A stretch of 64,000 nt of DNA, taken from contig CATQHI010000003.1 of assembly GCA_958295895.1 (NCBI GenBank), forward strand, positions 310,001 to 374,000. The letters are read 5' to 3'. A program made the position numbers and the translations under genes. The notes under the pieces were generated by a model, which did no database searches, had not been told where the DNA came from, and saw only the letters and a program-made list of their open reading frames with translations. Shown in pieces: positions 10,588 through 34,536 of the stretch (position 1 is its first letter; the number at the start of each line of letters is the position of its first letter). The stretch comes from Saprospiraceae bacterium (GTDB lineage Bacteria; Bacteroidota; Bacteroidia; Chitinophagales; Saprospiraceae).

Positions 10588-13500
10588 ATGCTCCCCCTTA
10601 AACACTGGCTCCCATTAGTAATGCTTGGTGTGTTCGTAATGCTTGCACTCTTTGTGAGCTGTGGAGACAAAGAATTGAAAAAAGAAGACTTCGGAAGAGT
10701 GCACGACGATGGTACACTTTTTTCGCTTTTGCCACCTAGCAGAACCGGAGTAGCTTTCGAGAACCCACTGACTGAGGGGCCCAACACCAATCTGCTCGTA
10801 TACGAGTATTTTTATAATGGTGGTGGTGTAGGTACGGGAGACTTCAACGGCGATGGCCTACCCGATCTTTACTTCGTCGCTAATATGGCGGACAACAAGC
10901 TGTATCTAAACCAGGGCGGACTGTCCTTCAGGGACGTAACTACCGAGAGTGGCGCAAGCGGGCGGGCGGGTCCCTGGAAGACCGGGGTCGCCGTCGTAGA
11001 CATCAACCTCGACGGGCTCGACGATATCTATCTTTCGTACTCGGGCATGCTTCCCCCCAATAAGCGTCGTAATCAACTCTTTATCAACCAGGGTATCGGT
11101 CCCAATGACGTCCCAACCTTCAGGGACGAGGCACCGCTCTACGGTCTCGACCTACCATCTTTTACTAACCAGGCCTATTTTTTTGATTACGACCAGGATG
11201 GCGATCTCGATGCCCTCCTACTCAATCACAACCCCAAGTTGCTCCCCATTCTTAACGTCGAACAAACTCGTCAACTGCTTGCCTTACCGGACCCAGACCG
11301 AGGATTACGCCTCCTCCGCAACCAGGACAATCGATTCACCGACGTTACGGAAGCCGCCGGCATCAACGGTTCGGCACTGAGCTACGGCCTGAGTCTCTCC
11401 CTCAGCGACATCAATCTCGACGGCCTACCTGACTTCTATGTCTCCAATGATTATGAAGTACCGGATTACCTCTACATCAACAACGGCGACGGCACCTTTA
11501 CCGACCGGCTCGCCGAGCAGCTCACCCATACGAGCCACTTTTCGATGGGCAGCGATATCGCTGACGTCGACAACGACGGACTGCCCGACATCGTCACCCT
11601 CGATATGCTGCCGGCGGATAACGAGCGTCGCAAGCTTCTGATGGCAGACGACAACCGCAGCAAGCACGATCTCAGCCTCGCCAGCGGGTTCCACGAGCAG
11701 ACCATGCGCAATATGCTTCACCTCAATCGCGGCAACGAGACCTTTGCGGAGGTCGGACAGCTTGCCGGCATCGCTACGACCGACTGGAGCTGGTCCGCCC
11801 TACTCGCCGATTTTGACAACGACGGCTACAAGGATCTCCACGTCACCAACGGCTACGTCCGCGATTACACCAATCAGGACTTCATCAAGTACATGGACGA
11901 TTTCGTGGCCGATCACGGTCGACTGAAGCGCGCTGATGTACTCGAACTGCTAAAAAAAATGCCGGCCTCTAACGTGAGCAACCAAGCCTTCCGCAACCGG
12001 AAAAACGGTACGTTCGAGAACGTTACTCAGTCCTGGGGCCTCGATCGCCCATCCACCAGCAACGGTGCCGTCGCCGTGGACCTCGACAAGGACGGTGATC
12101 TCGACCTGGTGGTCAATACTATCAATCAGGCAGCTCTCATCTATCGTAATAACGCGGCGGACCGGCACTTTCTGCAGGTTCAGCTCACAGTTCTCCCGGG
12201 GCAGACGGCGACCGGAGCCCGGGTGACCCTAAGCGCCGATAGCCTCACCCAAACTCAGGAACTGTACCCCAACCGAGGTTACCTCTCCACCGGTCCTACC
12301 CTGCTCCACTTCGGTCTAGGGGCGCAGACGCAGGTGCAAAGCCTCACCGTCGAATGGCCCGACGGGACACAGCAAGTTCTGACCGATCTACCCACCAATC
12401 AGCGGATTTCCTTACGGAAGGAAGACGCGGTGGCTTCCACTTCGACCGCCAATATGCCCCCACCCGTAGCTCTTTACGAGGCGGCACCATCACCCGTGGA
12501 CTACACCCACGAACTTACGCCATTCCGGGATTTCGACCGTCAGGCCTTACTCCCGAAATCCCTCTCGGACTGCGGTCCAATACTCGCCACGGGTGACCTC
12601 AACGGGGACGGTCTAACAGATTTGGTGATCGGAGGGACCCAAGGAAAAGAAGTGGGCGTGTATTTACAGCGGACCGATGGCGGCTTTAAGCCCCAAAGCA
12701 GTGCTGCCTTTGCCGCTACGGCAGCTGGAGTGACCAGTCAACTCGTACTGCGGGATATGGATGCAGACGGCGACTTGGACCTCTATGTTGCCAACGCCGG
12801 CTACCACGATTTTTCCGACCACTTCCCCGCCCTCGCCGATCAACTATTTATTAACGACGGGCAGGCATCGTTCACCGGTCCCTCACCACGCTTACCCGTC
12901 CTGCCGAGCGGTACCGGCAGCGTGGCCATCAGCCGGGAAAAGATACCCGAATACGTATTCGTGGGTGGCAGCGTAATTCCTGGAAAGTACCCCCTTGCGG
13001 CACCCAGTCGCTTGCTACGTCGTGACGAGCGGGGGGCGTGGCGGGATGTCTCCGCAACGGCGAACACCGCTCTCGTTGATCTGGGCATCGTAACCGATGC
13101 GGAGTGGCACGACCTTGATCAGGATGGTAACGATGAGCTCATCGTGGTCGGGCAGTATATGCCCATACGCGTGTTCAACCTGACAAATGGTAAATTGACT
13201 GAGTCAAGCGAGCACTTCTTCGATCAACCCACGCAAGGCTGGTGGAACGTCCTTCATCTGGCAGACCTCAACGGCGATGGCTTTACCGATCTACTCGTCG
13301 GCAACGAAGGAGATAATCACCTCTATCCCCTCAGTCCGCACCGGTCTGCCTATCTATTCAAGGACGACATTGACGGCAACGGCTCCATCGACCCCATTCT
13401 CACCGTCGGTACCGACACACTCGCTTATCCGGACCCTACCCGCGACGAGCTGCTGGCCCAGGTGCCCCAAGCGCGCACCCTCTACACGGACTACGCCTCC

Positions 13501-13944
13501 TACGCCCGGACGACCGCGGGTGATCTACTTGCTCAACTGGGTGTTACTAAGGGCGCCCTCACGGCCCGCATCAGCCGTACGACGATGTACCTGCGTGACC
13601 CACGGACCGGCAAATTCTTGGCCTCTCCCCTACCCATTCAGGCGCAGTATGCGCCGATACACACTATTCTTACCCTCGACGCCGACGGGGACGGGATCAC
13701 GGATATCTTGCTGGCCGGAAATGAAATCCGTGCCAGCCTGCGCAGGGGCAGCAGCGACGCTAATACAGGGATACTTCTGCGCGGATTGGGGGCCGGAAAA
13801 TTTGTCTACGTGCCCCAGGTTCTCTCCGGTTTCAATCTGCGGGGAGCGGTACGATCCGTAATTCACCTGGACGATCAACTAATATTCGGCGCTCAGGGTC
13901 AGGCGCTACAGGTTTACCGGAAGACCCCCTTACCAGTACGGTGA
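10588..13944 (+). CDS. FG-GAP/VCBS repeat lipoprotein with ASPIC/UnbV domain
   Basis: Large surface lipoprotein of 1118 residues. The signal peptide ends in LALFVSC (lipobox). Many calcium-binding FG-GAP/VCBS repeats follow in two blocks, for example GDFNGDGLPDLYF, DINLDGLDDIYL, DVDNDGLPDIVT, DLNGDGLTDLVI and DADGDGITDILL, as expected of a beta-propeller. Between the blocks, at about residues 525-615, is the ASPIC/UnbV domain ending HFGLGAQTQVQSLTVEWPDG. Proteins of this type are very common beside SusCD pairs in Bacteroidota; their molecular role is not firmly known, and binding or processing of surface glycans is inferred. It has its own start after a terminator, so it may be transcribed separately. 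Confidence 0.9.
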   Translation: MLPLKHWLPLVMLGVFVMLALFVSCGDKELKKEDFGRVHDDGTLFSLLPPSRTGVAFENPLTEGPNTNLLVYEYFYNGGGVGTGDFNGDGLPDLYFVANMADNKLYLNQGGLSFRDVTTESGASGRAGPWKTGVAVVDINLDGLDDIYLSYSGMLPPNKRRNQLFINQGIGPNDVPTFRDEAPLYGLDLPSFTNQAYFFDYDQDGDLDALLLNHNPKLLPILNVEQTRQLLALPDPDRGLRLLRNQDNRFTDVTEAAGINGSALSYGLSLSLSDINLDGLPDFYVSNDYEVPDYLYINNGDGTFTDRLAEQLTHTSHFSMGSDIADVDNDGLPDIVTLDMLPADNERRKLLMADDNRSKHDLSLASGFHEQTMRNMLHLNRGNETFAEVGQLAGIATTDWSWSALLADFDNDGYKDLHVTNGYVRDYTNQDFIKYMDDFVADHGRLKRADVLELLKKMPASNVSNQAFRNRKNGTFENVTQSWGLDRPSTSNGAVAVDLDKDGDLDLVVNTINQAALIYRNNAADRHFLQVQLTVLPGQTATGARVTLSADSLTQTQELYPNRGYLSTGPTLLHFGLGAQTQVQSLTVEWPDGTQQVLTDLPTNQRISLRKEDAVASTSTANMPPPVALYEAAPSPVDYTHELTPFRDFDRQALLPKSLSDCGPILATGDLNGDGLTDLVIGGTQGKEVGVYLQRTDGGFKPQSSAAFAATAAGVTSQLVLRDMDADGDLDLYVANAGYHDFSDHFPALADQLFINDGQASFTGPSPRLPVLPSGTGSVAISREKIPEYVFVGGSVIPGKYPLAAPSRLLRRDERGAWRDVSATANTALVDLGIVTDAEWHDLDQDGNDELIVVGQYMPIRVFNLTNGKLTESSEHFFDQPTQGWWNVLHLADLNGDGFTDLLVGNEGDNHLYPLSPHRSAYLFKDDIDGNGSIDPILTVGTDTLAYPDPTRDELLAQVPQARTLYTDYASYARTTAGDLLAQLGVTKGALTARISRTTMYLRDPRTGKFLASPLPIQAQYAPIHTILTLDADGDGITDILLAGNEIRASLRRGSSDANTGILLRGLGAGKFVYVPQVLSGFNLRGAVRSVIHLDDQLIFGAQGQALQVYRKTPLPVR

Positions 13945-13983: not shown

Positions 13984-15711
13984 ATGGCAGCTTACCTTTG
14001 CGCCACCGCCATGGAATTGTCCGCCTACCTACATCCCCTACCCCCGGCAGTTGCCGGAATGGCGGGCCCCGCCCGCTTTACCTACCCCTTTTACTACCGG
14101 CCCCACCCGCTAGCACTGGCAGCAGCGGCTGACCTACAGGAGCATTTACTGTGGGAGCGTAAGTGGGACTATGACTTTGGGCTGGCGTCGGATCGGCCTA
14201 CCGGGGGGCGGGGAAAGATGTTCGGGGTACTGGTGGTGAGGCGCGCGGAGGGCAGCCTGGGCTACCTGGCTGCTTACTCCGGTAAGCTTGCGGATAGCAA
14301 TCACTTGCCGGGATTTGTGCCACCGGTGTTCGATCTACTGGAGCCGGATGGGTTTTACAAGGCCGGCGAGATTGAGGTGCATGAGCTCACCCTACGGATC
14401 GAAGCGCTTCGCAACTCCCCCGAATACCAGGAGGCTACGGCGGATTACACCGCTACCCTGGGGCGAACGGAAGCAGAACTTGCCGCCGAGCGGAAGAAGG
14501 TCAAGGAGGGAAAACAGCGAAGGAAAGCCCAGCGCACCGCCGCCCGGTATCTCAGTACCGTAGACGTGCAGGAACTAGAGGAACAGCTACGGGAGGAAAG
14601 CATAAGAGAGAGTTACGGACTGAAGGATATGTGTGGAGTAGTAAAGTGCCAAGTAAAGCAAAAAAAGAAAATTTTGGATGAGTATAATGGTACCATTCAG
14701 AATCTACTGGACGAACGCGCCGCCCTATCCGCATCTCTGCAGGAGCGTATCTTCGAGCGGTACACCTTTTTGAATGCGACGGGAAAGGATCGATCCTTGG
14801 GTAGCATTTTTCGTGAGACGGTGTTTGGCGTTCCGCCCGCCGGAGCCGGAGAGTGTGCCGCACCCAAGCTGCTGCAGTTTGCCTACCAGCACGGGCTGCA
14901 TCCTATAGCCCTGGCTGAGTTCTGGTGGGGCGAGTCTCCCACCTCCGCCATTCGTAAGCACGGCCACTTTTACCCCGCCTGCCGGGGTAAGTGCGAGCCG
15001 ATCCTCGGACACATGTTAGGGGGCCTACCCACCGATCCTAATCCCCTACTGGACAATCCCGGTGCCGATACGAAAATTGACATCGTCTACGAAGACGAAA
15101 CCATCCTGGTGATCGATAAGCCCGCCGGCCTACTCAGCGTACCCGGTAAGCGGATCTCCGATTCCGTGCAGCGCCGCATAAGGGCTACCCACCCCGAGGC
15201 TACTGGCCCCCTCATTGTACACCGGCTCGATATGTCTACCAGCGGCCTACTGCTACTGGCAAAAACTAAAGAGGCCCACAAGCTCCTGCAGCGGCAATTT
15301 TTCAAGCGGTCGGTCAGCAAACGCTACGTTGCCGTGGTAGCGGGACAGGTGAAGGAAGACCGTGGCACGATCGACCTGCCCCTGCGTGGGGACCTGGAAG
15401 ATCGGCCCCGGCAGATCGTGTGCAGCGCCCACGGCAAGTCAGCCCGTTCGCACTGGGAAGTCGCGGCGCGCGATACCTACACTACGACCGTCCGCTTCTG
15501 GCCCGTCACCGGCCGCACCCACCAACTGCGCGTCCACGCCGCCCACCCCGAGGGACTCAACGCCCCCATCGTAGGCGATGATCTCTACGGCCAGCCCGGC
15601 GACCGGTTGTACCTCCACGCCGAGCAGCTGGAGTTCACGCATCCGGTGACCAAGCGGGCCCTGTCGTTCACCCTCCCCGCGCCGTTTGCACCCGCGCACG
15701 CGCCCAGCTGA
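13984..15711 (+). CDS. RluA-family pseudouridine synthase with long N-terminal domain
   Basis: RNA pseudouridine synthase of 575 residues in two parts. Residues 365-575 are the RluA catalytic domain: DEETILVIDKPAGLLSVPG-like start, HRLDMSTSG with the catalytic Asp near 415, and GRTHQLRVHAAHP. Residues 1-350 are an accessory region seen only in the long RluA subgroup: an N-terminal domain, a charged coiled coil (about 165-265), and a Cys/His-rich segment GECAAPKLLQFAYQHG...HGHFYPACRGKCEPILGHML. The RNA target is unknown. It begins 40 bp after the UnbV-protein gene and converges on the dgcA-like gene. The coiled-coil part is locally AT-rich. Confidence 0.9.
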   Translation: MAAYLCATAMELSAYLHPLPPAVAGMAGPARFTYPFYYRPHPLALAAAADLQEHLLWERKWDYDFGLASDRPTGGRGKMFGVLVVRRAEGSLGYLAAYSGKLADSNHLPGFVPPVFDLLEPDGFYKAGEIEVHELTLRIEALRNSPEYQEATADYTATLGRTEAELAAERKKVKEGKQRRKAQRTAARYLSTVDVQELEEQLREESIRESYGLKDMCGVVKCQVKQKKKILDEYNGTIQNLLDERAALSASLQERIFERYTFLNATGKDRSLGSIFRETVFGVPPAGAGECAAPKLLQFAYQHGLHPIALAEFWWGESPTSAIRKHGHFYPACRGKCEPILGHMLGGLPTDPNPLLDNPGADTKIDIVYEDETILVIDKPAGLLSVPGKRISDSVQRRIRATHPEATGPLIVHRLDMSTSGLLLLAKTKEAHKLLQRQFFKRSVSKRYVAVVAGQVKEDRGTIDLPLRGDLEDRPRQIVCSAHGKSARSHWEVAARDTYTTTVRFWPVTGRTHQLRVHAAHPEGLNAPIVGDDLYGQPGDRLYLHAEQLEFTHPVTKRALSFTLPAPFAPAHAPS

Positions 15712-15716
15712 TCGTG

Positions 15717-16766
15717 CTACTTTCTGCCCAGACCCGGTAAGCCATTCGGCCGCAGGATACCCCGTTTGAGCGTAAACAAGTCCCGGAAGGGGTCATCGAC
15801 AAAATCGAGGTGACCATCCAGGTCGGCGTAGAGAATATTCGGCCGGCTCAGAGCAAAGTGGAGTCCGCCGGCAATACCGAGCCCGCACTCGTCCAGGCAG
15901 CCGACCATGACCTCATTAGCCGCTGATTTGGCCACCGAGTTGATGTGCGTAGCCGCCCAGATACCGCCCACCTTCTGGATCTTGATGTTGATCATATCGG
16001 TGAGCTCGTGCTGAGTGAGGCGGAAGGCATCGGTGAGCGTCTTCAGACTCTCGTCGGCCATCACGGCAATAGGTGAATCGCGGGTCAGGGTGCCCATTAC
16101 GGCCTCTTCATCAATGCTAGTGGGCTGCTCCAGGATCTCAATGCCCAGAGGTTGGGCTAGACTGATAAAGCGCAGTGCCTGGTCCAGGCTGTAGCCCTGG
16201 TTCCCGTCGAATCGTAGTGTTACTTTAGGAAAATACTGGCGGATTAACTTCAGTCGATCGATATCCTCCCGGTAATCTAGCCCCCCCTTGATCTTGAGGA
16301 TGTCAAAGCCGTCAGCTACGTACATCCGTGCCCGGCGCAGCGTTTCGGCTACCGGTAGGATGCCGATCGTGATGCTGGTAGCGATCTCGGGCCGAAAGCC
16401 CCCCAGAAACTCGTACAGCGGTACGCCGGCGGCCTTCGCCACCAGATCGTAGAGCGCAGCATCGACCATCGCCAGGGCGGAGCTCTTCAAACTGGGGCGG
16501 AGCTCCTCCAGCAGGCGGGCGTAGTGAAAGGGATTCTGGGCGGCCAGCGCAGGTGCAATCAGATCGGTGATGGCCATTTCCACATCGGCGGCCAGTTCGC
16601 CGGTGACCACCAGGTCGGGCGCGGCACAGCCGTAGCCGACCAGTCCTGTATCGGTGTGTAGCTGCAACACGAAGTTGGTCGCCGCACCAATGGTCTGGTA
16701 AGCGATGGTATAGGGCTCGGTAAGCTCCAACTCGTAGCGCTCGTACTCGACGTGGATGATCTTCAT
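15717..16766 (-). CDS. dgcA: Enolase-superfamily racemase/epimerase, DgcA- or dipeptide-epimerase-like
   Basis: Muconate-lactonizing-type enolase-superfamily enzyme of 349 residues that uses Mg2+ and two lysines to invert an alpha carbon. The acid/base pair is visible as Lys158-x-Lys160 (LKIKGG) and Lys262 (INIKIQK); the metal ligands are Asp187 (RFDGNQGY), Glu213 (ILEQP) and Asp238 (MADES). By sequence alone it could be an L-Ala-D/L-Glu epimerase. The dgcN-like gene just upstream makes N-acetyl-D-glutamate racemase (DgcA) the better guess. It is last in a three-gene minus-strand operon, 29 bp after dgcN. Confidence 0.8.
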   Translation of the reverse strand: MKIIHVEYERYELELTEPYTIAYQTIGAATNFVLQLHTDTGLVGYGCAAPDLVVTGELAADVEMAITDLIAPALAAQNPFHYARLLEELRPSLKSSALAMVDAALYDLVAKAAGVPLYEFLGGFRPEIATSITIGILPVAETLRRARMYVADGFDILKIKGGLDYREDIDRLKLIRQYFPKVTLRFDGNQGYSLDQALRFISLAQPLGIEILEQPTSIDEEAVMGTLTRDSPIAVMADESLKTLTDAFRLTQHELTDMINIKIQKVGGIWAATHINSVAKSAANEVMVGCLDECGLGIAGGLHFALSRPNILYADLDGHLDFVDDPFRDLFTLKRGILRPNGLPGLGRK

Positions 16767-16795
16767 CCGGTGAAGGTAGCCCGGGCCGCCGCGGA

Positions 16796-17854
16796 CTACT
16801 TCAGCTTCGTAAGGATTAGTTCCACCAGCTGGTCTGGACCATCGGCTAGTACGTCGTAGCAGGGTAGCCCGGTCTGCTCGGTGATCGCACGGCAGGCTGC
16901 CGGGATGTCTGAGGTTTTAATCCCCTCGTGGTTCAGGGTCACGGCCAGTACGTCGCGGCCCGACACCACCTTGATGGCATTGATCTGCTCGGACAGGCCG
17001 TGCAGCCGGTAGCCGGCAAAGCCATCGTACTCTTTACGGGTGGGGGCGTGCTGTAGGATCACGTAATCCGGCCGGCCCGCCGCCAGAATTTCGAAACCGC
17101 CCGGATAGGCGGGGTTCATCAGCGAGCCCTGCCCCTCAATGACGATCACGTCAGGCTGTTCGTTGCGGTAGGCACTCACCACGGCGTGCTCGATCTCGCC
17201 GGAGACAAAATCGTTGATGCAGCTGTCCATGATCATGGAGTACTTCGCCCCCTGCATCCAGCCAGTCTGACCGGTGCCGATCATTTGCGCACGCCGATCG
17301 GCCCGTTGCAGCCCCTGCACGATGAGCCAGGCGGTGGTGCGTTTGCCGATGGCGGAGTCGGTACCCAGTACGGCCAATTTGAGGCAGTCTACCCCCTCGA
17401 TATCGCCGGTGAAGAAATGCAGTCGGTCGCGGTCCGGCGTCATACGGATATCGCGTACCTGTACTCCGTGGGCGCGGGCGGCGGCCATCAGACTGGCATC
17501 CTTGTGGATGAAGTCGTGCAGGCCACTGTCCACATTGAGCCCGGCGGCAATGGCGTCGGCTACGACGCGGCAACCGGCGGCGGGTAGGCGGCCGCCGTCC
17601 GGGGCCAGTCCGATGACAAAGTAGGTAGGATCGAACTGCAACGCCTCCTCCAGATTTTCTACTACCGGTATGCCATTCGGTTTTCCGTCGAGCACCTCGC
17701 CGCTATCCTGCCCGGCGTAGCGGCTGTCGATGATGGCTAGGACCGTATACCGGTAGGTAAATCGGGCTAGGCCGTGGGCCGTCTTGCCGTTGGGGGTATT
17801 GAAGGCACCTTCGCAGTACACGACTGCGGGTCCGTCTAGGGGGGTGGTTGACAT
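16796..17854 (-). CDS. dgcN: DUF1611 protein, DgcN-like D-glutamate N-acetyltransferase candidate
   Basis: DUF1611 family protein of 352 residues: an N-terminal Rossmann-like domain (about 1-150) and a C-terminal P-loop domain whose Walker A-like segment is GTDSAIGKRT (164-173), followed by MIGTGQTGWMQGAKY and VIVIEGQGSLMNPAYPG. In marine bacteria, DgcN of this family has been reported to N-acetylate D-glutamate before DgcA racemises it; assignment here rests on family membership and the adjacent enolase-superfamily gene. It starts 6 bp after the PLP-enzyme gene, so the genes are surely co-transcribed. Specific substrate not proven by sequence. Confidence 0.78.
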   Translation of the reverse strand: MSTTPLDGPAVVYCEGAFNTPNGKTAHGLARFTYRYTVLAIIDSRYAGQDSGEVLDGKPNGIPVVENLEEALQFDPTYFVIGLAPDGGRLPAAGCRVVADAIAAGLNVDSGLHDFIHKDASLMAAARAHGVQVRDIRMTPDRDRLHFFTGDIEGVDCLKLAVLGTDSAIGKRTTAWLIVQGLQRADRRAQMIGTGQTGWMQGAKYSMIMDSCINDFVSGEIEHAVVSAYRNEQPDVIVIEGQGSLMNPAYPGGFEILAAGRPDYVILQHAPTRKEYDGFAGYRLHGLSEQINAIKVVSGRDVLAVTLNHEGIKTSDIPAACRAITEQTGLPCYDVLADGPDQLVELILTKLK

Positions 17855-17860
17855 GGGGTA

Positions 17861-18913
17861 TTATCGTTTGGCGGTTAGTACCGCTACGTGGGGTCCTTGT
17901 TCGTCGGCTTCGGATTCAAGCAGGGCGATGAGTCCGGCGGTGGAGGCAGGGAGTACCTGTAGGGCTTCTTTCTCGCGCAGGTAGGTGGACATCTTGCGCA
18001 TCTTGGCGTCCGAGATATGCCGGGCCCCTCCCCCACTCGCGTAGAGTGCATCCAGGGCCTCCTGCCCGTCGAAGCTGTGCCAGTTGATCAGCGGTTCGTT
18101 CACGTCGGTTTCGGTGATTTTAGCGGGATCAAGGTCGAGACACGTTCGGCTCCCCCGCAAAAAGGAGGTTACGATGGGGTTCTTGTGCGTGGAGGAGGCG
18201 GCTACCATCCGGGGCAGTTGCTCCATGCGGCCCGCTGTGTGAAGCCGCTGGAAACCCTGAAAAATACCGGCTAGCAGCGTGCCATTCGAAACGGGCACCG
18301 CCACCGTGACGGGCACCGCCGGGAGTTGCGCAACCAGCTCATCCGCGATTCCGGAGTAGGCCCGCAGTTGCAGCGCTGAGTTGGTGGTGCCGGGATTAGC
18401 ACTGTACCAACCGTGGTGAGCCGCCTCCGTGGTACTGTAGGCTACGACCTCCTCGTAGGTTCCCACCGGTCGGTAGATAGTGGCGCCCAGTGCTTCCATT
18501 TCTGCCAGTCGTCTGGTGTGGTAGCCGGCCGGTACGTAGATCATACACTGCAGTCCGGCTAGACGAGTCGCAAGCGCCACGGCGACTCCGTAGTTCCCAC
18601 AGGTAGCAAAGGAGATGGTATTGACTCCTCGTAGGAGGGCGTCCTCCGCGTGGGCAAAGGCGATGCGGTCTTTCTGGGTACCCGTAGGATTATCTCCCTC
18701 AAACTTTAGGTAAATCCCTTCCCTGTCAAAGTCCCTTTCGAGACCGCGGGATCGGCGCAACCAGGTAGCTCCAACGTCGCGGGCGGTCAGCTGTCGAAAG
18801 GCGGCCACCCGCTCTGATCGGGGTACGGTATCATCGGCGCTTAAGGCTGCCAACGCGCGGGAGACTTTGGAAACACTGTTACTAGCCGTGTGTACGGCGT
18901 CGCGGAGGGTCAT
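17861..18913 (-). CDS. Fold-type II PLP enzyme, threonine synthase-like
   Basis: PLP-dependent enzyme of 350 residues of the threonine synthase/TrpB fold. The Schiff-base lysine is Lys81 in DNPTGTQKDRIAFAH, and the phosphate/carboxylate loop is TISFATCGNYGVAVALA; YVPAGYHTRRLAEMEALGA is the usual following segment. It is probably a lyase or dehydratase acting on a hydroxy- or amino-substituted amino acid; a true threonine synthase is unlikely because it lacks the N-terminal domain and sits with dgcN and dgcA. As first gene of the operon it may feed or complete D-amino-acid breakdown (inference). The start ATG is the first in frame. Confidence 0.75.
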   Translation of the reverse strand: MTLRDAVHTASNSVSKVSRALAALSADDTVPRSERVAAFRQLTARDVGATWLRRSRGLERDFDREGIYLKFEGDNPTGTQKDRIAFAHAEDALLRGVNTISFATCGNYGVAVALATRLAGLQCMIYVPAGYHTRRLAEMEALGATIYRPVGTYEEVVAYSTTEAAHHGWYSANPGTTNSALQLRAYSGIADELVAQLPAVPVTVAVPVSNGTLLAGIFQGFQRLHTAGRMEQLPRMVAASSTHKNPIVTSFLRGSRTCLDLDPAKITETDVNEPLINWHSFDGQEALDALYASGGGARHISDAKMRKMSTYLREKEALQVLPASTAGLIALLESEADEQGPHVAVLTAKR

Positions 18914-18999: not shown

Positions 19000-19794
19000 C
19001 TACCGACTGCGCCTCAACTGTTGTGCACTGCGGTTCGGTCCCGGACGGTACACCCGCTGCTGGTAGGCAAAGTCAAACCGGCGCTCCTCGACGCTGACCG
19101 ACAGACGCAGGCGATCAACTTCATCGGAGCGGGAAAAAATGAGCTTGCCCACCGCACGCTCTCCGGGCCTTACGGTGGTGCGCCGCAGGGCGTGATCGAG
19201 CCAGAAAAAGCGGTTGTCGGGGCCCGGTACGTCGGTAGGCACTGCGATCGTACGGAGGCGCTGCTCGGTGTCCAGGATGTTGAAAAAGGCCGCATCGTAG
19301 AGGGAAATGGAGATGTCGCCGACCAGATCGGCCGTGCGACTGGAGGCGGTAGGGGTTTCGGTGGGACTACTCCCTTCCGCGATTGCATAGACCGTACCGG
19401 CCACCACCAGGGCGCCGCCCACCCAGGCCATGGTGCGCCGGCCCTGCTCACGGTGCAGCACCTCCATGTCGAGGGAAAAGAGTTCGATTTCGGGGTCCAG
19501 CGCGTGGTGGCCCTGGTTCTCCCCGGTGTAGAGTATAGTGGCTACGGGGTCAAAAAGAACTTCTTCTGCCCCATCGTTGAGGACCATGACGTCGAAAATG
19601 ACGTAGTCCGGAGTAGCATCGTAAAAGTTCGTTTCCACCGTGATGCCATCCTGCTCCAGCTGCTGGATGGCGTTGCCGTAGAAGTAGCGGTCGACGGTCG
19701 CTTCCGACTCCGGTTCGATGCGCACCAGCTGGAGTGGTCGACCGCAGCTGGTGCTTATCAGGGCGACGAGAACGAGGGAGTAGAACTGCTGCAT
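19000..19794 (-). CDS. Hypothetical lipoprotein
   Basis: Predicted lipoprotein of 264 residues, signal ending in LISTSC (Cys17). No family recognised. The body looks beta-rich, with VIFDVMVLNDGAEEVLFDP, and a glycine/alanine hydrophobic segment WVGGALVVAGTVYAIAEG near the middle that could cross a membrane or belong to a fold core. The C-terminal part RPGERAVGKLIFSRSDEVDRLRLSVSVEERRFDF resembles an Ig-like beta sandwich. It stands alone, upstream of the dgc operon on the same strand but 86 bp away. A 300-codon frame on the other strand is a shadow. Confidence 0.65.
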   Translation of the reverse strand: MQQFYSLVLVALISTSCGRPLQLVRIEPESEATVDRYFYGNAIQQLEQDGITVETNFYDATPDYVIFDVMVLNDGAEEVLFDPVATILYTGENQGHHALDPEIELFSLDMEVLHREQGRRTMAWVGGALVVAGTVYAIAEGSSPTETPTASSRTADLVGDISISLYDAAFFNILDTEQRLRTIAVPTDVPGPDNRFFWLDHALRRTTVRPGERAVGKLIFSRSDEVDRLRLSVSVEERRFDFAYQQRVYRPGPNRSAQQLRRSR

Positions 19795-21362: not shown

Positions 21363-24300
21363 CTACTGCTCCGCGAAGGCCTCCTCCACCCGGCGCAGGA
21401 AGGTAGCGGCGGTGCCGGGGGTGACCTCGAGGATCTCATAGGTCTGTCCGTCGTCCATTTCCAGTACCAACTCCTTGGCCTTCATGCCCCGCAGGGTATT
21501 CATGAAGGTGTTGTTGTTGCTTACTACATTGAGGATACCGTCCTTGAAGCCGAAGAAGTAGTAGGTCTCGCTGGGTGATTTGATGTACAGGTACAGGCGG
21601 TCTTCGTCGCCGGTGGTCATTTTTACTTCGAGGTAGGATTCGATGCGCCGGCTGAGGGCCTGTCCGCCCACCGAGGCCAGGCCATTGCTGGCCGACGTAC
21701 TGACCCAGGACTGGTAATCGGCGTTCCACCGCATGGGCAGGTCACTGAAGAGGAAGGTGTGGCGGTTGATGGCGGGCGGAAGGTCCAGGGCATCGGCGGC
21801 CAGTCCGGCAATGGCCGCCTCGCGCTGCGGTCCGGCCGGGAACAGGGCCTCGATGCCGACCGTGGCAAACGGTATTCGCTCGTTGATGCCCAGTTGGGGC
21901 GCGCTGTAGCCGCTGGATACGATGTCGGTGGCCATGATCTGCGTAAGCTGTTCGGGGAGGATCAGGTCGATGGCGGTCATCAGCTCCACCTCCGTGGTCG
22001 GGTAATTTTTCTCGGCTTCGGTACGAGCGGCCTCGGCGGCTTCCTCTTCCGTAAGTTCGGCTTCACCGCCGGCCACGGGGGTGGGTTCGGTTTCTTCTTC
22101 GAGCAGGAACATATTGTCGGTCAGGGTCTCGGCCGGCTTGACTCCGGAGCTGTCGGTCGCGCTATCCGCTACATCGTCAGTCGAGTTATCCCCGTCTTCC
22201 TCCTCCACAAGGTCTAGCTCCGGGGCGGCGGATTGCTCCGGCAGGTCCATAGCGATGGTACCGTAACTGGTCATACTAATGTACTTGAGCCGCCCGCCGA
22301 TGCCGAGGAGGCCGTCTCCGGTCACCTTGCCGTTCGGGCGGTCGTAGACCATCAGATTCCCCTGGGTGGCCGTGGGGTCCTTGACCCGCGTACTGTCGCC
22401 GAAGCGAAAGGCATCATTCTCCTCATCATAGAGGAACACCCCACTGGCATCCAGGATGGGGTGATCCAGCCGCCGGTGCAGGGTCTGTACCATGCTGGGG
22501 TAGATCTGCCGCTCGGGCTTACTGAGGTAAAAACCGGTGTTTAGGGGTTTGGCGTCGCGACCTACGGCACCGGCGGTGTTGAGCACCAGGTTGGTTTTGT
22601 CGCCCTCACTCTGCACGGCGAACCATTCGGCGGAGGGCAGATTTTCCGCCTCGATCTTGGCGTAGCCGTCGAAGCCGAGTACGGGGCTACCGGCGTCCAG
22701 GCTGATGGTACCGAAGAATCGGGTCTTGTTGTCGATGTAAAAGGGGGTGTCCTCGGCGATTTCTCCCTCGGCGCGCGTAGCGGTGTTCTTTTCTGATTTT
22801 GCTCCCTTACCGATGCGCGTACCCACGATGTTCTGCAGTTCGAACTCCTGGGTGTGGGGGCCCACGTTGTACTCGTAGAAGCCCGAGGCGGTATACTCCT
22901 TGCGCCCGGCGATATCTACCGTGGCGCGATTGATGACGTGGTACTCACTGATCGTATCGGCTACGATCTGGGCGTCGGTCAGCTGCGCAATGCGACCGCC
23001 GGGCTGGACGACCAGCTTACCGTCGCCCGGAATGATCTTCGCATCGGCACTGATCACGTAGGGTACCCCCCCGACCTCGAGCTGGCTGGCCAGGTTATCG
23101 TACACGGCCGACTGGGCGGTGAAGGTCAGCGAATCCTGGTCGACGTTGGTACTGGTGAAGCGGTCCTTGCCGTCGGCGGTGTTGAACACGATGTTGCCCT
23201 GCTTCATGTCCCACTCGAACTCATTGGCACTGGTGATGAACTCCGTGTAGGGCAGCTCGGTGGCTAGTTCACTACCGTTGTTACGGAAGGTAGCCTTTCC
23301 GGCGGCAAAGTCCACCGCGGTAGCGACGTTGCTCGTCGCCAGGGCGATGTTGGCCGTATCCTGCACGCTTTTGATGCGCACCGTGGAGGTATCCGCCGCC
23401 ACCCCGTCGGCACCGAAGCTCAGGGCTTCGCTACTGATACTGGCCTTGGACCAATCTAGCGTACCGGTACCCTGCAGGGCGGTAGGCGTCAGGACCAGGG
23501 TGCCGGTAAAACTATGGTCCCCCTCCTCGAAAAGCTCGAAGGGGTAGCCGCGCTCGGGCTGGATGATCAGTGAGTCACCGTAGGGCCGAAAGGTAATATT
23601 CACCCGCTCTCCCAGCACCGTGGGTACGCTGCGCCGATCGGTGATGGAGCGCTTGAGCCGGAAGGTCTCCGTCGTCGTAGTCGTGCTGTCCACCCCGAAG
23701 GTGATGGTAGGGCTCTCAATTTCTGCCTCGAGGTAGTTTAACTTGCCACTACCGCTCAGGCCCTGGTTGGTCAGGCTCAGTTGACCGGAGTAGTTGCCGC
23801 GATCGCCGTAGGCTGCCTGCCCGGTGCTATCGGTATCGCCCACAAATCCAAGACTACCATCTTCCTGCACCCGCAGCGTCTGCTTGATCCGGCCGAAGAT
23901 GCCCCCGCTGACCAGCTCGCCCTCCAGCGCCAGGTTGTTTTCCGTGAGGGAGTCGAGGTTGTTGATGCTCAGGTTAGCGAGCTCGAAGTAGAAGCTATCG
24001 CGGGAGTACAGGGAGCTGGTATCCCCCTGGTCGTAGTAAACGTAGCTGGGCCCCCGGGTCTGGATACTGGGGAAGTAGGCAATGTCCTCCGAGCCGCTCT
24101 TATTTTTGGGCGCGTCAAGCAGGATGTAGCCGCTCACGTTTTCGATGCGGCTGGCCGTCGAGAGCAGTTTGACGTCATCACTCATCTTGCCCCCCTCCGG
24201 CAGAAACACATCGATGTCGGCCGAATCGAAGGTGATGTAGTAGGGGGCGTACTTGAAGTGGAAGCTATCCGCCGTCACGATGGTATTACCGGCGTATACC

Positions 24301-26087
24301 GTGCCCCCAAAATCCAGGTTGCGGTCACCGACGATGTCGATGATCTCGTTGCTGGGCTTAATGGCGATTTTCTTGTCGCGGTTCAGCGAGATGGGCTGCA
24401 CGGCCACCACGCGGATGGTCCCCTTGCGCAGATCAATGAAGGCATTCTCGGTCGGGGTGCTCGATACGATCCGTAGGTTGTCGTAATCCTTGGCCTCCCG
24501 CTGCGAGAGCACGAAGTGGTCCAGTTTGCCCTTCACGGCGATCTTGCCGGACTCCTCGTCGTAGGTCAGAAATCCGCGGTCCTGCAGCTCGTAGATGACC
24601 GACTCGATATCCCGCCCCGTCAGCCCCGCCTGGAATTCCTGGGCCAGTCCTTCAATGCCGACCGTATCGGAGGCCGGATACAGGGCAGCGCGGTAGCGGT
24701 AAATCGCTTCCAGCGGATCACCCCCGGCCAGGGCCTTGATGCGGGCGTACTCCTGCTTACTGAAGTAGTCCTCACTCTCAAAGACCACGTCGCCCTTTTC
24801 CTGAAAGGAAGCCGTGCGGCGGCCCACTACGGCACTGTCACTGGCCAGGTACACGGTGATGTTAGTCGCATCGATGTTGAAGCGGTTGCCACTGTGGTAG
24901 AAGGGTGCGGCCGAGGCACTACTTTTACTGCGGTTGAGTTCTACGACCCGGTTGGGCACGTCCACGTCAATACTGATGCTGGGGTGGTAGAGACTATCCC
25001 GTCCGAAGAAGATCGTCATATCGACCTTCTGTCCGGTGATGCGCTCGCCGGGATCTACCACGAAGAGCTCCCCGAGCCCGCGCACCTTGCGCTCGTCCCG
25101 TCCATCACGGATGTCCAGGGTCACCACGGCCTTACGCCCCTCCCCGCCCAGTACGTAGGCCCGCGAGGCCCGCAGTTCGAACTGCCCCTCCAGGCTCATG
25201 CCCTCCCCGACCTGATCCACGAGTACGCGACCGTTGGTCGATACGAACTCCGGCACGTCGCCCTGTACGCGGGGCCCACCCGATTGCAGCCGGTCCTTGA
25301 AACTACCGTACAGGATGCGGTCCCCGAAGTAGGCCGGATACTGAAACTGCGCGCTATCCGAGGTGATGAGCTGCCGGTCTACCTCGAAGTGGTAATCGAC
25401 CAGGCGCACAAAAATATCACTGGGCAGGCCCACCCGCTGCCAGTCGGTCCGGCCGCCCTTACCGGTCACCTGGCCGCTGCCCAGATCGACCAGCAGCTTC
25501 GTTTCCTGGATCATGATCGAATCGCCCGTCGTACTTCCCAGCAGTTGCTGCACCGTGTCGATGCGCAGGACCGGGCCCTCCGCGTACTCGAAGTGCGGCC
25601 TGCCCCCGGCCACCTTCCAGCCGTATGCTCCCTCGCGGCGGTCGAGCCGGGCGTTGCGTAGGTACACCTCGGTGGTGGCCAGTGCTGCGTTTACCGCGGC
25701 GGGCGATACCTCCGGGTCGGCAAGCATCGCCTGCAGCATAGCGTGGAACTCGGCGAAGAGCGTCGTCTTTTCTTTATCGGATCCCTCCAGGTAGGCGTGT
25801 AGGTCCAGGAAGTCGGCCATGCCATTGTCGGGGGCAATTTTGAGCCGGGCCAGGCTAGTCGCCGACTGCACGATTCGCCGCTGCTGCACGGTATCGAGTC
25901 CGCCACCGTAGAATACACCGGTAAAGTTGGCGTAAGCATCCTTTGCCCGCGTATTGCGCGAGGCGGTCATGTACTCTTCTAACTGCAGCTCGAAATCGGC
26001 CACCGGGGCATCCGGCGATAGCTCGGCCAGCTGCGCCGTAGCCAGGGCCGACCAGAATACCAAAGCCAGAAAGATGATGCGCCGCAT
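21363..26087 (-). CDS. Giant exported protein of unknown function (about 1574 aa)
   Basis: The ATG at 26087 is preferred over the one 44 codons upstream because it gives a signal peptide (MRRIIFLALVFWSALATAQ). No family recognised. After a helical start, most of the protein is beta-rich with many short segments such as DIRDGRDERKVRGLGELFVVD, GNTIVTADSFHFKYAPYYITF and GTISLDAGSPVLGFDG, reminiscent of OstA/AsmA-like beta-helical or barrel-associated envelope proteins (inference). Two clear internal repeats of about 96-residue period start near residues 760 and 855 (YSGQLSLTNQGLSGSGKLNY and FTGTLVLTPTALQGTGTLDW). An acidic Glu/Asp-rich linker lies at about 1296-1360, before an alpha/beta C-terminus. 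An ordinary fast-evolving envelope scaffold is the simplest reading. Confidence 0.75.
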   Translation of the reverse strand: MRRIIFLALVFWSALATAQLAELSPDAPVADFELQLEEYMTASRNTRAKDAYANFTGVFYGGGLDTVQQRRIVQSATSLARLKIAPDNGMADFLDLHAYLEGSDKEKTTLFAEFHAMLQAMLADPEVSPAAVNAALATTEVYLRNARLDRREGAYGWKVAGGRPHFEYAEGPVLRIDTVQQLLGSTTGDSIMIQETKLLVDLGSGQVTGKGGRTDWQRVGLPSDIFVRLVDYHFEVDRQLITSDSAQFQYPAYFGDRILYGSFKDRLQSGGPRVQGDVPEFVSTNGRVLVDQVGEGMSLEGQFELRASRAYVLGGEGRKAVVTLDIRDGRDERKVRGLGELFVVDPGERITGQKVDMTIFFGRDSLYHPSISIDVDVPNRVVELNRSKSSASAAPFYHSGNRFNIDATNITVYLASDSAVVGRRTASFQEKGDVVFESEDYFSKQEYARIKALAGGDPLEAIYRYRAALYPASDTVGIEGLAQEFQAGLTGRDIESVIYELQDRGFLTYDEESGKIAVKGKLDHFVLSQREAKDYDNLRIVSSTPTENAFIDLRKGTIRVVAVQPISLNRDKKIAIKPSNEIIDIVGDRNLDFGGTVYAGNTIVTADSFHFKYAPYYITFDSADIDVFLPEGGKMSDDVKLLSTASRIENVSGYILLDAPKNKSGSEDIAYFPSIQTRGPSYVYYDQGDTSSLYSRDSFYFELANLSINNLDSLTENNLALEGELVSGGIFGRIKQTLRVQEDGSLGFVGDTDSTGQAAYGDRGNYSGQLSLTNQGLSGSGKLNYLEAEIESPTITFGVDSTTTTTETFRLKRSITDRRSVPTVLGERVNITFRPYGDSLIIQPERGYPFELFEEGDHSFTGTLVLTPTALQGTGTLDWSKASISSEALSFGADGVAADTSTVRIKSVQDTANIALATSNVATAVDFAAGKATFRNNGSELATELPYTEFITSANEFEWDMKQGNIVFNTADGKDRFTSTNVDQDSLTFTAQSAVYDNLASQLEVGGVPYVISADAKIIPGDGKLVVQPGGRIAQLTDAQIVADTISEYHVINRATVDIAGRKEYTASGFYEYNVGPHTQEFELQNIVGTRIGKGAKSEKNTATRAEGEIAEDTPFYIDNKTRFFGTISLDAGSPVLGFDGYAKIEAENLPSAEWFAVQSEGDKTNLVLNTAGAVGRDAKPLNTGFYLSKPERQIYPSMVQTLHRRLDHPILDASGVFLYDEENDAFRFGDSTRVKDPTATQGNLMVYDRPNGKVTGDGLLGIGGRLKYISMTSYGTIAMDLPEQSAAPELDLVEEEDGDNSTDDVADSATDSSGVKPAETLTDNMFLLEEETEPTPVAGGEAELTEEEAAEAARTEAEKNYPTTEVELMTAIDLILPEQLTQIMATDIVSSGYSAPQLGINERIPFATVGIEALFPAGPQREAAIAGLAADALDLPPAINRHTFLFSDLPMRWNADYQSWVSTSASNGLASVGGQALSRRIESYLEVKMTTGDEDRLYLYIKSPSETYYFFGFKDGILNVVSNNNTFMNTLRGMKAKELVLEMDDGQTYEILEVTPGTAATFLRRVEEAFAEQ

Positions 26088-26100
26088 ACCGGGTAGTTGT

Positions 26101-26941
26101 TCAATCGCGTTCGAAGGCAAACGCCCGCCAGTCATCCACTGCCGATGTCTGTCGGTGCCGAAAGCCGAGCTGCTGCAGGTGGTCGATGAGCCGTGCGGTA
26201 TCCTGTGCAAGGACGCCACTCAGCAGGGCCGTCCCACCCGGCCGCAGTCGCCCGTACAACGCCCCCCCGGTAGCCAGTAGTACGTTCCGGTTGATGTTTG
26301 CCAGCACCAGGTCGTAGGGCTTACCGATGGGCAGGCACATCGCCGAGTTCACCGTGCACCACCCCGTCCAGTTTCACCCCGTTCTGCACCGCGTTTTCGA
26401 GCGTGCTTTCGTAGGCGGGCCGCTCGATGTCTACGGCATCTACCCGCCGCGCACCGAGCTGTTTGGCGAGGATCGCTAGCACCCCGGTGCCGGACCCATA
26501 ATCTAGTACGCTGACCCCCTGCGGCTGCGCGGCAAAGTAGTCCAGCAGCAACTCGCACATCATGTGGGTCGTAGCGTGGTGACCCGTACCAAAGGCCATT
26601 TTAGGGTCGATCACGAGCTCCCGCGCCACGCCGATTTGCGGCGCGTGAAAGCTTGCCCTAATCGACAGCCGATCCCCAATCCGTATGGGCGCAAAGTCCC
26701 GCTCCCACTCCGCATTCCAGTTCCGCTGCACCAGCCGCCGCGCCTCGTAGGCGAAGGGGATCCGCCGCTGTAGCTCCCGAAAAACTACCGGCCAGTCAGT
26801 ACCCGCAGTGTCGGCGGCGTAGGCAATGAGCACTTCTTCCGTTTCCTCAAAGGCCTCCATACCCGCATCGGCGAGCAGCGCAATGAGTAGCTCGCGGTGC
26901 TCCTCGGAGCAGACCAGGGTGTAGGTCGTGTAGTCGGGCAT
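26101..26941 (-). CDS. prmA: Ribosomal protein L11 methyltransferase PrmA, frameshifted
   Basis: SAM-dependent methyltransferase for ribosomal protein L11. The first part (ATG at 26941) contains NWEx-like NWNAEWERDFAPIRIG, then MAFGTGHHATTHMMCELL and the SAM motif VLDYGSGTGVLAI. The frame then ends at 26321 after GELGDVPAHR. The rest continues one frame away: PIGKPYDLVLANINRNVLL, PGGTALLSGVL and the end ending AFAFERD. One extra base in the CCC run near 26330 explains the break (+1 on the coding strand). As the two halves together give the normal length of about 280 residues, a sequence error is more likely than a pseudogene. It is divergent from rlmH. Confidence 0.85.
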
Positions 26942-34292: not shown

Positions 34293-34376
34293 TGCCGGAG
34301 GGGGGAGTCGAACCCCCACGCTCGCAAAAGCACACGCCTCTGAAACGTGCGTGTCTACCAGTTTCACCACTCCGGC
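34293..34376 (-). tRNA. tRNA-Leu (anticodon CAG)
   Basis: On the minus strand the gene starts GCCGGAG and ends CTCCGGC plus discriminator A, a perfect 7-bp acceptor stem. The D arm is GTGGTGAAACTGGTAGACAC, the anticodon loop TTCAGAG gives CAG (reads CUG), a long variable arm marks a class II tRNA, and the T arm is GGGGGTTCGACTCCCCC. The full CCA is not encoded. Confidence 0.96.
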
Positions 34377-34454: not shown

Positions 34455-34536
34455 TACCGCCAGTGGGAATCGAACCCACACTCCCGGAGGAACTGGATTT
34501 TGAATCCAGCGCGTCTACCAATTCCGCCATAGCGGC
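34455..34536 (-). tRNA. tRNA-Leu (anticodon CAA)
   Basis: On the minus strand, GCCGCTA pairs with TGGCGGT (two G-U pairs), the D arm has GGAATTGGTAGAC, the anticodon loop TTCAAAA gives CAA (reads UUG), a variable arm TTCCTCCGGGAGT forms a hairpin, and the T arm is GTGGGTTCGATTCCCAC. Class II shape confirms leucine. It is the second of two neighbouring tRNA-Leu genes, each with its own promoter. Confidence 0.96.

Follow-up and report, generated by a model that had tools for sequence, protein, structure and literature searches.

DgcN, an N-acetyltransferase, and DgcA, an N-acetyl-D-glutamate racemase, constitute a D-glutamate pathway in which a protein of the DUF1611 family is paired with a member of the enolase superfamily. 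The same pairing is encountered in the stretch of DNA described here, a window of 64,000 nucleotides from Saprospiraceae bacterium GCA_958295895.1 (contig CATQHI010000003.1, positions 310,001-374,000, forward strand), where a DUF1611 gene and a gene encoding an enolase-superfamily epimerase follow a gene for a fold-type II enzyme that depends on pyridoxal 5'-phosphate (PLP). Other closely related systems include the dipeptide epimerases, the bacterial threonine synthases and, for an optional fourth gene found in relatives, MurL, which is reported to turn the L into the D form one-way, with conversion of ATP to AMP (PMC8788868).

The operon formed by these three genes, hereafter the trio, is real, conserved and little described, and constitutes a DUF1611-epimerase module that differs from the known ones and has optional partners in relatives. 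Searches of open-licence PubMed Central texts found no paper describing a PLP-DUF1611-epimerase operon, in line with a preliminary description of the locus that regarded it as a little-described system. The trio probably inverts the stereochemistry of an amino acid that is unusual and possibly basic. As a marker operon of marine Bacteroidota it is compact, with a PLP gene that bears the NCBIfam name 'threonine synthase' and a DUF1611 gene that could be counted as dgcN. Bacteroidetes appear as significant dgcN carriers in a marine D-amino-acid survey (PMC12363236). If the trio acts on another amino acid, such dgcN counts would mislead, and a hidden D-amino-acid pathway could be tested once three to five enzymes have been purified.

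Conservation of the three-gene operon

The three genes are tightly packed, as reported previously; their coordinates and order (Table 1) and the intergenic gaps of 6 bp (PLP/DUF1611, 17855-17860) and 29 bp (DUF1611/epimerase, 16767-16795) were confirmed. Conservation was assessed in 150 genomes of the family of the window, its own genome counted, and in a named collection that yielded 356 relatives matching the profile of the PLP protein, of which the best 80 were fetched, so that this set is biased towards the kin of the window. The best 80 include Neolewinella, Maribacter, Muricauda, Kordia, Dokdonia, Balneola, Reichenbachiella and others.

The PLP protein was found in 21 of the family genomes, DUF1611 proteins in 52 and enolase-type relatives in 95. 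Apart from the window's own protein, the DUF1611 proteins of the family fall into identity classes of 58-79%, approximately 37-44% and approximately 26-32%; the first of these together with the window's own protein forms the trio class, which is present in 16 of the 150 genomes. The PLP gene adjoins the trio-class DUF1611 gene in all 16, with a divergent arrangement in locus L029. Among the best 80 of the named collection, DUF1611 lies within 0.7 kb of the PLP gene in 79, L066 intact among them, and an epimerase gene is found inside the fetched stretch in 70. For seven of the ten remaining loci, another part of the assembly encodes a trio-class epimerase (56-68%), and three of these loci are truncated by a contig end (L070, L087, L105); L082 and L102 carry the MurL-like gene described below and have no enolase-type match above 37%. 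The adjacency is conserved and not a matter of chance, and the neighbourhood counts confirm the single operon of the preliminary description, with the PLP gene as an integral member; the outcome that would have contradicted it, a PLP gene not conserved beside dgcNA, did not arise.

At the level of the phylum the PLP gene is widespread, not universal, and was detected in 16 of 296 sampled genomes at an E value of 1e-60. The loci assigned to SAR324 (L128) and Melioribacteraceae (L093) are contigs of metagenome-assembled genomes (MAGs) and may be mis-binned. No PLP relatives were found in plasmids at an E value of 1e-20, and none were confirmed in viral contigs.

The three proteins and their described relatives

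The DUF1611 protein matches the Pfam families DUF1611 (2.8e-61) and DUF1611_N (2.3e-24), and the epimerase matches MR_MLE_C (1.2e-39) and MR_MLE_N (3.6e-12). The preliminary description had read the two as DgcN and DgcA acting on D-glutamate, which is not supported by their sequences. The DUF1611 protein scores 144.1 bits (E 4.7e-42) with the DgcN model (NF041892), far under the equivalog cut-off of 480, and the epimerase scores 135.3 bits (E 2.7e-39) with the DgcA model (NF042940), where the cut-off is 400; a Maribacter relative of the DUF1611 protein reaches 157.3 bits with the DgcN model. In the same family, a DUF1611-epimerase pair without a PLP gene beside it gave higher scores, also below the cut-offs, in both loci scored of the five in that class, with DgcN at 239.2 and DgcA at 190.9 bits in L154, and 210.1 and 184.7 bits in L157. 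Altogether, two more DUF1611-epimerase pair classes without an adjacent PLP gene are present in the family (L141-L152 and L153-L157). In a tree of 61 hand-chosen DUF1611 sequences out of 119, which carries a long-branch warning, the trio forms one clade (100/98), joined by a family-level class of such pairs (the duo class) and then by a Vibrio/Roseobacteraceae group, and two annotated DgcN proteins lie across a 100/99 branch from it. The DUF1611-enolase pairing itself, as well as the DxD motif and catalytic lysines of the epimerase, are common to the trio and DgcN/DgcA; the trio differs in its scores, its separate clade, its pocket positions and its extra PLP gene. Moreover, two annotated dgc operons that were opened carry a D-amino-acid transaminase or a symporter, neither of which is present in the trio.

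DUF1611 proteins are mostly, not always, partners of a racemase or epimerase, because such partners occur in most of the 12 plasmid regions opened out of 102 records: four stand alongside a protein of the alanine/ornithine-racemase family, three alongside a dipeptide epimerase and two alongside DgcA. The pair with the alanine/ornithine-racemase-family protein, on plasmids of Vibrio and of the Roseobacteraceae Ruegeria and Phaeobacter (L175, L176, L178, L180), resembles the trio in its DUF1611 protein (39-43% identity) and has a partner of the Ala_racemase_N fold; unlike the trio, its four regions have no enolase epimerase or threonine-synthase-like gene annotated.

For the epimerase, positions were counted in 77 trio-class sequences longer than 330 aa and in 12 duo-class sequences. 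The preliminary description had noted an enolase-superfamily protein with all catalytic residues, and the aligned set (K158xK160, D187, E213, D238, K262 and D315xD317) is indeed present in 77/77 trio-class proteins. These catalytic positions and DxD are also found in the dipeptide epimerases 1jpm, 3rit and 3jva, which match at 207.1, 202.3 and 183 bits, respectively; the trio class differs from them by D51, Glu or Gln at position 24, and G161 beside the catalytic lysine. With the L-Ala-D/L-Glu epimerase model (NF041118) the score is 203.9 bits, which fails the cut-off of 500 and is still above the DgcA score. The hallmarks of dipeptide epimerases (KxK, the D/E/D metal triad, the C-terminal lysine and DxD) are all found, and are shared with DgcA. 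Positions 24, 51 and 292 differ from those of two annotated DgcA proteins. Residues 24 and 51 separate the trio class from the duo class, which has Ala, Ser or Thr at position 51, and from these DgcA proteins; D292 is common to the duo class. The L-Ala-D/L-Glu epimerase of Bacillus subtilis has Ile at the D292 position and Arg at position 24, which presumably reads the glutamate side chain. Glu and Asp occupy positions 51 and 292 in 3rit, which we take to be a Methylococcus enzyme preferring cationic dipeptides. Because the pocket holds D51, D292 and Glu or Gln at position 24, the side chain of the substrate is probably basic, a reading in which confidence is moderate. The genome of the window (G000) encodes further enolase-superfamily proteins on contig 12 (L159) and contig 26 (L160), the former with motifs resembling those of the solved epimerase 3q45.

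The PLP protein belongs to the PALP family (Pfam, 4e-46). That it is not a proper threonine synthase, as was proposed in the preliminary description, agrees with its score of 67.9 bits with the threonine synthase model TIGR00260, which fails the equivalog cut-off of 167.1, and with a separate gene in the same genome that reaches 280 bits; the NCBIfam model PRK06381 (NF004996), however, gives it this very name at 369.4 bits, above a cut-off of 266. No gene passes the PRK06381 model in 14 control genomes. The nearest solved folds are threonine synthases, with 22-25% identity in the best fold alignments, and the best solved relatives (1uim, 2zsj, 2d1f and 6cgq, all bacterial) share the fold and the PLP lysine. 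They differ from the PLP enzyme in the TCGNYG loop and at Gln182: at the loop position four solved threonine synthases read S-T-G-N-T, whereas 101/101 relatives read (T/S)CGNYG, and the Arg that they keep at the Gln182-equivalent position is presumably involved in phosphate binding. The PRK06381 name is doubtful for this gene, because the loop differs, Gln replaces Arg and another thrC gene exists. A housekeeping threonine synthase role was considered for the PLP enzyme and dropped, as another gene passes the thrC cut-off.

Optional partners in relatives

Eighteen of the 80 named loci have a gene of approximately 503 aa, or a longer fused one, after DUF1611, and 17 of these also encode a creatininase-type protein, separately or as a fused domain; in the remaining locus (L064) no creatininase was called in a gap of 0.8 kb. 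The creatininase assignment (PF02633) of this optional fifth gene scores 245 bits in L033 and 238.5 bits in the fused protein of L031, above the gathering score of 31.3. The pair, or part of it, is carried by 11 of 20 family loci, and the fourth gene occurs somewhere in 12 of the 21 PLP-positive family genomes. In two of these genomes it accompanies a PLP gene in the absence of trio-class DUF1611: in G062 the two genes are adjacent (L034, 5948-9491), and in G055 they lie approximately 61 kb apart on contig 77 (110582-112087 and 173005-173925).

The product of the fourth gene contains an invariant SSGGKDS motif (S166-S172 in 16/16), in which SGGKDS is the ATP-pyrophosphatase motif. It is referred to as MurL-like because 13 of 16 members match the MurL model (NF041275) weakly, at best 1.4e-5 and over approximately 74 residues in the one alignment shown. 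It also differs from MurL: it falls far below the equivalog cut-off of 700 bits, is part of another operon, stands next to a creatininase and was not found in the genome of the window. No solved relative of its profile was found by sequence at an E value of 1. The structure model (pLDDT 89.2) has QueC (Z 13.9, 190 residues), QatC (Z 13.6, 323 residues) and Cap9 as nearest folds, and the protein is predicted on this basis to adopt a QueC-type PP-loop fold.

Every one of the 16 family genomes with PLP and DUF1611 has an epimerase candidate, of the trio-class enolase type in 13 and only MurL-like in three (G058, G101, G140). Twelve of the 13 have at least 50% identity, and the other (G090) is a contig-end fragment with 47%. 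Because each of the 16 genomes keeps at least one candidate, this pattern suggests that the enolase-type and MurL-like epimerases might be able to replace each other. Moreover, some relatives combine two unrelated peptide-epimerase types in one operon. In Muriicola and Eudoraea (L122, L127, L132) a MurL-like gene and an epimerase gene stand together, apart from PLP-DUF1611.

A second set of partners concerns the cell envelope. Near the operon, 19 of the 80 named loci have a gene of the Beta-lactamase2 family, 18 of these with a gene for a 939-aa HEAT-repeat membrane protein, and seven (L072, L122, L123, L124, L127, L131, L132) also encode a protein with a PPDK_N domain and another Beta-lactamase2 protein. 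This cassette is thus wholly linked in 7/80 loci, three of which have it upstream of PLP and the other four downstream of DUF1611, and partly linked in 12/80; the linked cassettes belong to Maribacter, Muriicola, Eudoraea and a Bacteroidales MAG. Within the first 400 residues of the HEAT protein there are 13 hydrophobic stretches; the N-terminal part of this protein resembles a solved plastid ADP,ATP carrier (9j3j, E 4.5e-6, residues 100-426), with MFS_1 under its cut-off. The PPDK_N protein has a start that resembles a signal peptide by eye, and a weak match to the mobile domain of PEP-utilising enzymes. A possible nucleotide carrier of the NTT type and an apparently secreted protein of ATP-binding fold prompt the question whether ATP is used outside the cytosol, as the combination might indicate.

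The HEAT protein was further searched in 49 chosen genomes, comprising 21 PLP-positive and 21 PLP-negative genomes of the family, the latter taken from the head of the list and not at random, and seven named ones. Matches were found in 14/21, 2/21 and 5/7, respectively. All four cassette genes stand together in 16 of 20 fetched stretches (12 PLP-positive, 2 PLP-negative, 2 named; L192-L207), so that an unlinked cassette is found in 12/21 PLP-positive and 2/21 PLP-negative family genomes. Fisher tests, uncorrected for kinship, gave p = 3e-4 when the HEAT protein was counted and p = 2.5e-3 when the complete cassette was. The genome of the window, its congener G006 and Neolewinella maritima have the HEAT protein alone in the fetched stretch (35-36%; L190, L191, L209). 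The system thus has the cassette as a partner in many relatives, whereas in the window the cassette does not evidently belong to it.

An earlier interpretation of the other recurring neighbours as genus-level synteny was withdrawn when annotation revealed the envelope cassette. The other annotated recurring clusters (ABC ATPase, GH63-like, SSF symporter, met-zincin, AraC regulator and one without a Pfam match) look like local synteny; this annotation covered the 14 listed clusters except cl13, cl20, cl22 and cl23 and, of the Neolewinella-only ones (cl9, cl10, cl11, cl14 and cl15), cl15. With these partners, two earlier remarks hold for the window and need qualification for relatives: the window has no adjacent transporter gene, whereas the operon of some relatives is linked to a transporter-like gene, and the absence of a deacetylase is to be set against the creatininase-type amidohydrolase in the operon of some of them.

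Possible pathway and genomic setting

The operon and its conservation, the assignment of families, folds and motifs, the separation from DgcN, and the linkage and co-occurrence in relatives can be tentatively combined into a cytosolic pathway in which the alpha-carbon of an amino acid is inverted from L to D while held as an N-acyl or dipeptide conjugate. In such a pathway the PLP enzyme, a threonine-synthase relative that lacks the conserved Arg, would subject a free amino acid to beta/gamma elimination or replacement, and the DUF1611 P-loop protein could then conjugate this amino acid through ATP-dependent ligation or acyl transfer. The epimerase would subsequently flip the conjugated residue, the side chain of which is probably basic. 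In some relatives the QueC-fold MurL-like protein may drive L-to-D epimerisation with ATP, instead of or beside the enolase-type enzyme, the creatininase-type amidohydrolase may trim or release the product, and the envelope cassette may handle it outside the cytosol. A fuller version, which is decidedly speculative, has the threonine-synthase-like enzyme making a basic, non-proteinogenic amino acid, which a DUF1611 ligase builds into a dipeptide, and either the reversible enolase-type or the ATP-driven MurL/QueC-type epimerase flipping it; in many relatives the D-product would be exported, or worked on outside by the beta-lactamase-fold enzymes and the secreted dikinase-like protein, with the NTT-like carrier perhaps supplying the ATP.

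The biosynthetic L-to-D direction is narrowly favoured over a catabolic one, mainly by analogy, because MurL acts one-way from L to D and the annotated recurring neighbours include no typical enzyme of amino-acid degradation. Nearly as likely is a catabolic inversion, in which a scavenged D-amino acid other than glutamate would receive an N-acyl group from DUF1611, be converted into the L form by epimerisation and lose the acyl group through the creatininase-type or a housekeeping amidase, after which the PLP enzyme would degrade the L form; in relatives, D-residues set free outside the cell by the beta-lactamase-fold proteins would be imported by the transporter-like protein. This possible alternative is in keeping with DgcN/DgcA, whose annotated operons contain a D-amino-acid transaminase or symporter, with the amidohydrolase of the five-gene version and with the envelope cassette, whereas the MurL-like partner suggests the opposite direction and no transaminase or similar enzyme was seen among the annotated recurring neighbours.

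Three further explanations are less likely. That DgcN and DgcA here turn D-glutamate into N-acetyl-L-glutamate, in a pathway widened by the PLP enzyme, is unlikely: the two families are the same and both models match at 4.7e-42 and 2.7e-39, but the scores amount to 144.1 of 480 and 135.3 of 400 bits, a more DgcN/DgcA-like pair without PLP exists in the same family (L154, L157), and the 100/99 tree separation and positions 24, 51 and 292 set the trio apart. Recycling of murein peptides by an ordinary L-Ala-D/L-Glu epimerase would fit the best solved match, the B. subtilis enzyme at 207.1 bits; with its Arg24 replaced by Gln in the window and by Glu in 70/77, D51 and D292 added, and three further enolase-superfamily matches in the same genome, it is improbable. 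Least probable is a back-up threonine synthase functionally unrelated to the DUF1611 protein and epimerase, despite the PRK06381 score above cut-off and the threonine synthases as nearest solved folds, given the other gene that passes the thrC cut-off, Gln for the conserved Arg in 101/101 sequences and the tight linkage to the other two genes.

Several observations weigh against the proposed L-to-D pathway. To our knowledge, DgcN/DgcA is the one characterised DUF1611 system, and it is catabolic and uses acetyl-CoA; the tree that separates it from the trio has the hand-chosen sampling and long-branch warning given above. The plasmid DUF1611 regions of Vibrio nigripulchritudo and Streptomyces have no racemase or epimerase, and one of the 12 is unannotated. 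Five of the 21 PLP-positive family genomes have no adjacent DUF1611 (G023, G031, G055, G062, G134), three of these (G023, G031, G134) are missing the MurL-like gene too, and in named locus L116 the PLP gene stands alone, without DUF1611, enolase-type epimerase or MurL-like gene. The MurL-like gene is patchy, with 12 changes among 33 trio rows of the DUF1611 tree, and was not found by search in the genome of the window, where NF041275 matched nowhere, controls included, and by itself shows nothing on its absence. The reading of a cationic substrate leans on Glu51 and the Asp at position 292 of 3rit and on a reported specificity, and DxD was dropped as proof of a dipeptide over an N-acetyl substrate, as two annotated DgcA proteins share it. 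The HEAT protein has no match in 7/21 PLP-positive family genomes, and transporter-like and beta-lactamase-fold proteins would be as compatible with D-peptide uptake and breakdown as with export; the L-to-D pathway is weakened because a transporter-like gene does recur near the operon in relatives.

Table 1. Coordinates of the trio, of residues discussed in the text and of surrounding features (positions in the window)
Feature	Position	Strand	Remarks
PLP enzyme, fold-type II, threonine-synthase-like, NCBIfam PRK06381; first in operon	17861-18913	-	350 aa
Lys81 in GTQKDR, predicted PLP-binding	18671-18673	-	101/101 sequences; role by fold-type II convention
Loop T-C-G-N-Y-G, residues 104-109	18587-18604	-	C105, N107, Y108, G109 in 101/101
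Gln182, aligned with Arg kept in four solved threonine synthases	18368-18370	-	Gln in 101/101
DUF1611 protein, Rossmann-like N-domain and P-loop domain	16796-17854	-	352 aa
P-loop G-T-D-S-A-I-G-K-R-T-T, residues 164-174	17333-17365	-	In the DUF1611 protein
Epimerase, enolase-superfamily, dipeptide-epimerase-like	15717-16766	-	349 aa
Gln24	16695-16697	-	Trio class Glu 70, Gln 5, Asp 1, Gly 1 of 77; Arg24 in B. subtilis Ala-Glu epimerase
Asp51, trio-class acidic pocket residue	16614-16616	-	76/77
Catalytic K158-x-K160	16287-16295	-	77/77 trio class
Catalytic Lys262	15981-15983	-	77/77 trio class
Asp292, acidic pocket residue	15891-15893	-	77/77 trio, 12/12 duo; also 3rit
D315-x-D317 motif	15816-15824	-	77/77 trio class; also two annotated DgcA, not discriminating
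FG-GAP repeat protein with ASPIC/UnbV domain	10588-13944	+	1118 aa
Gene with RluA-type domain	13984-15711	+	575 aa; convergent
Open reading frame (ORF) upstream of PLP gene	19000-19794	-	No Pfam or NCBIfam match at E 0.01
ORF	21363-26219	-	1618 aa; no Pfam match at E 0.001
tRNA gene	34293-34376	-	Rfam, above gathering score
tRNA gene	34455-34536	-	Rfam, above gathering score

An Rfam search of the whole window found no RNA families by the operon, and the two tRNAs were the sole matches above the gathering score. Downstream of the epimerase, the pseudouridine synthase domain of the RluA type is confined to residues ~358-568 of the convergently encoded protein, the first 350 residues of which have no Pfam match above cut-off.

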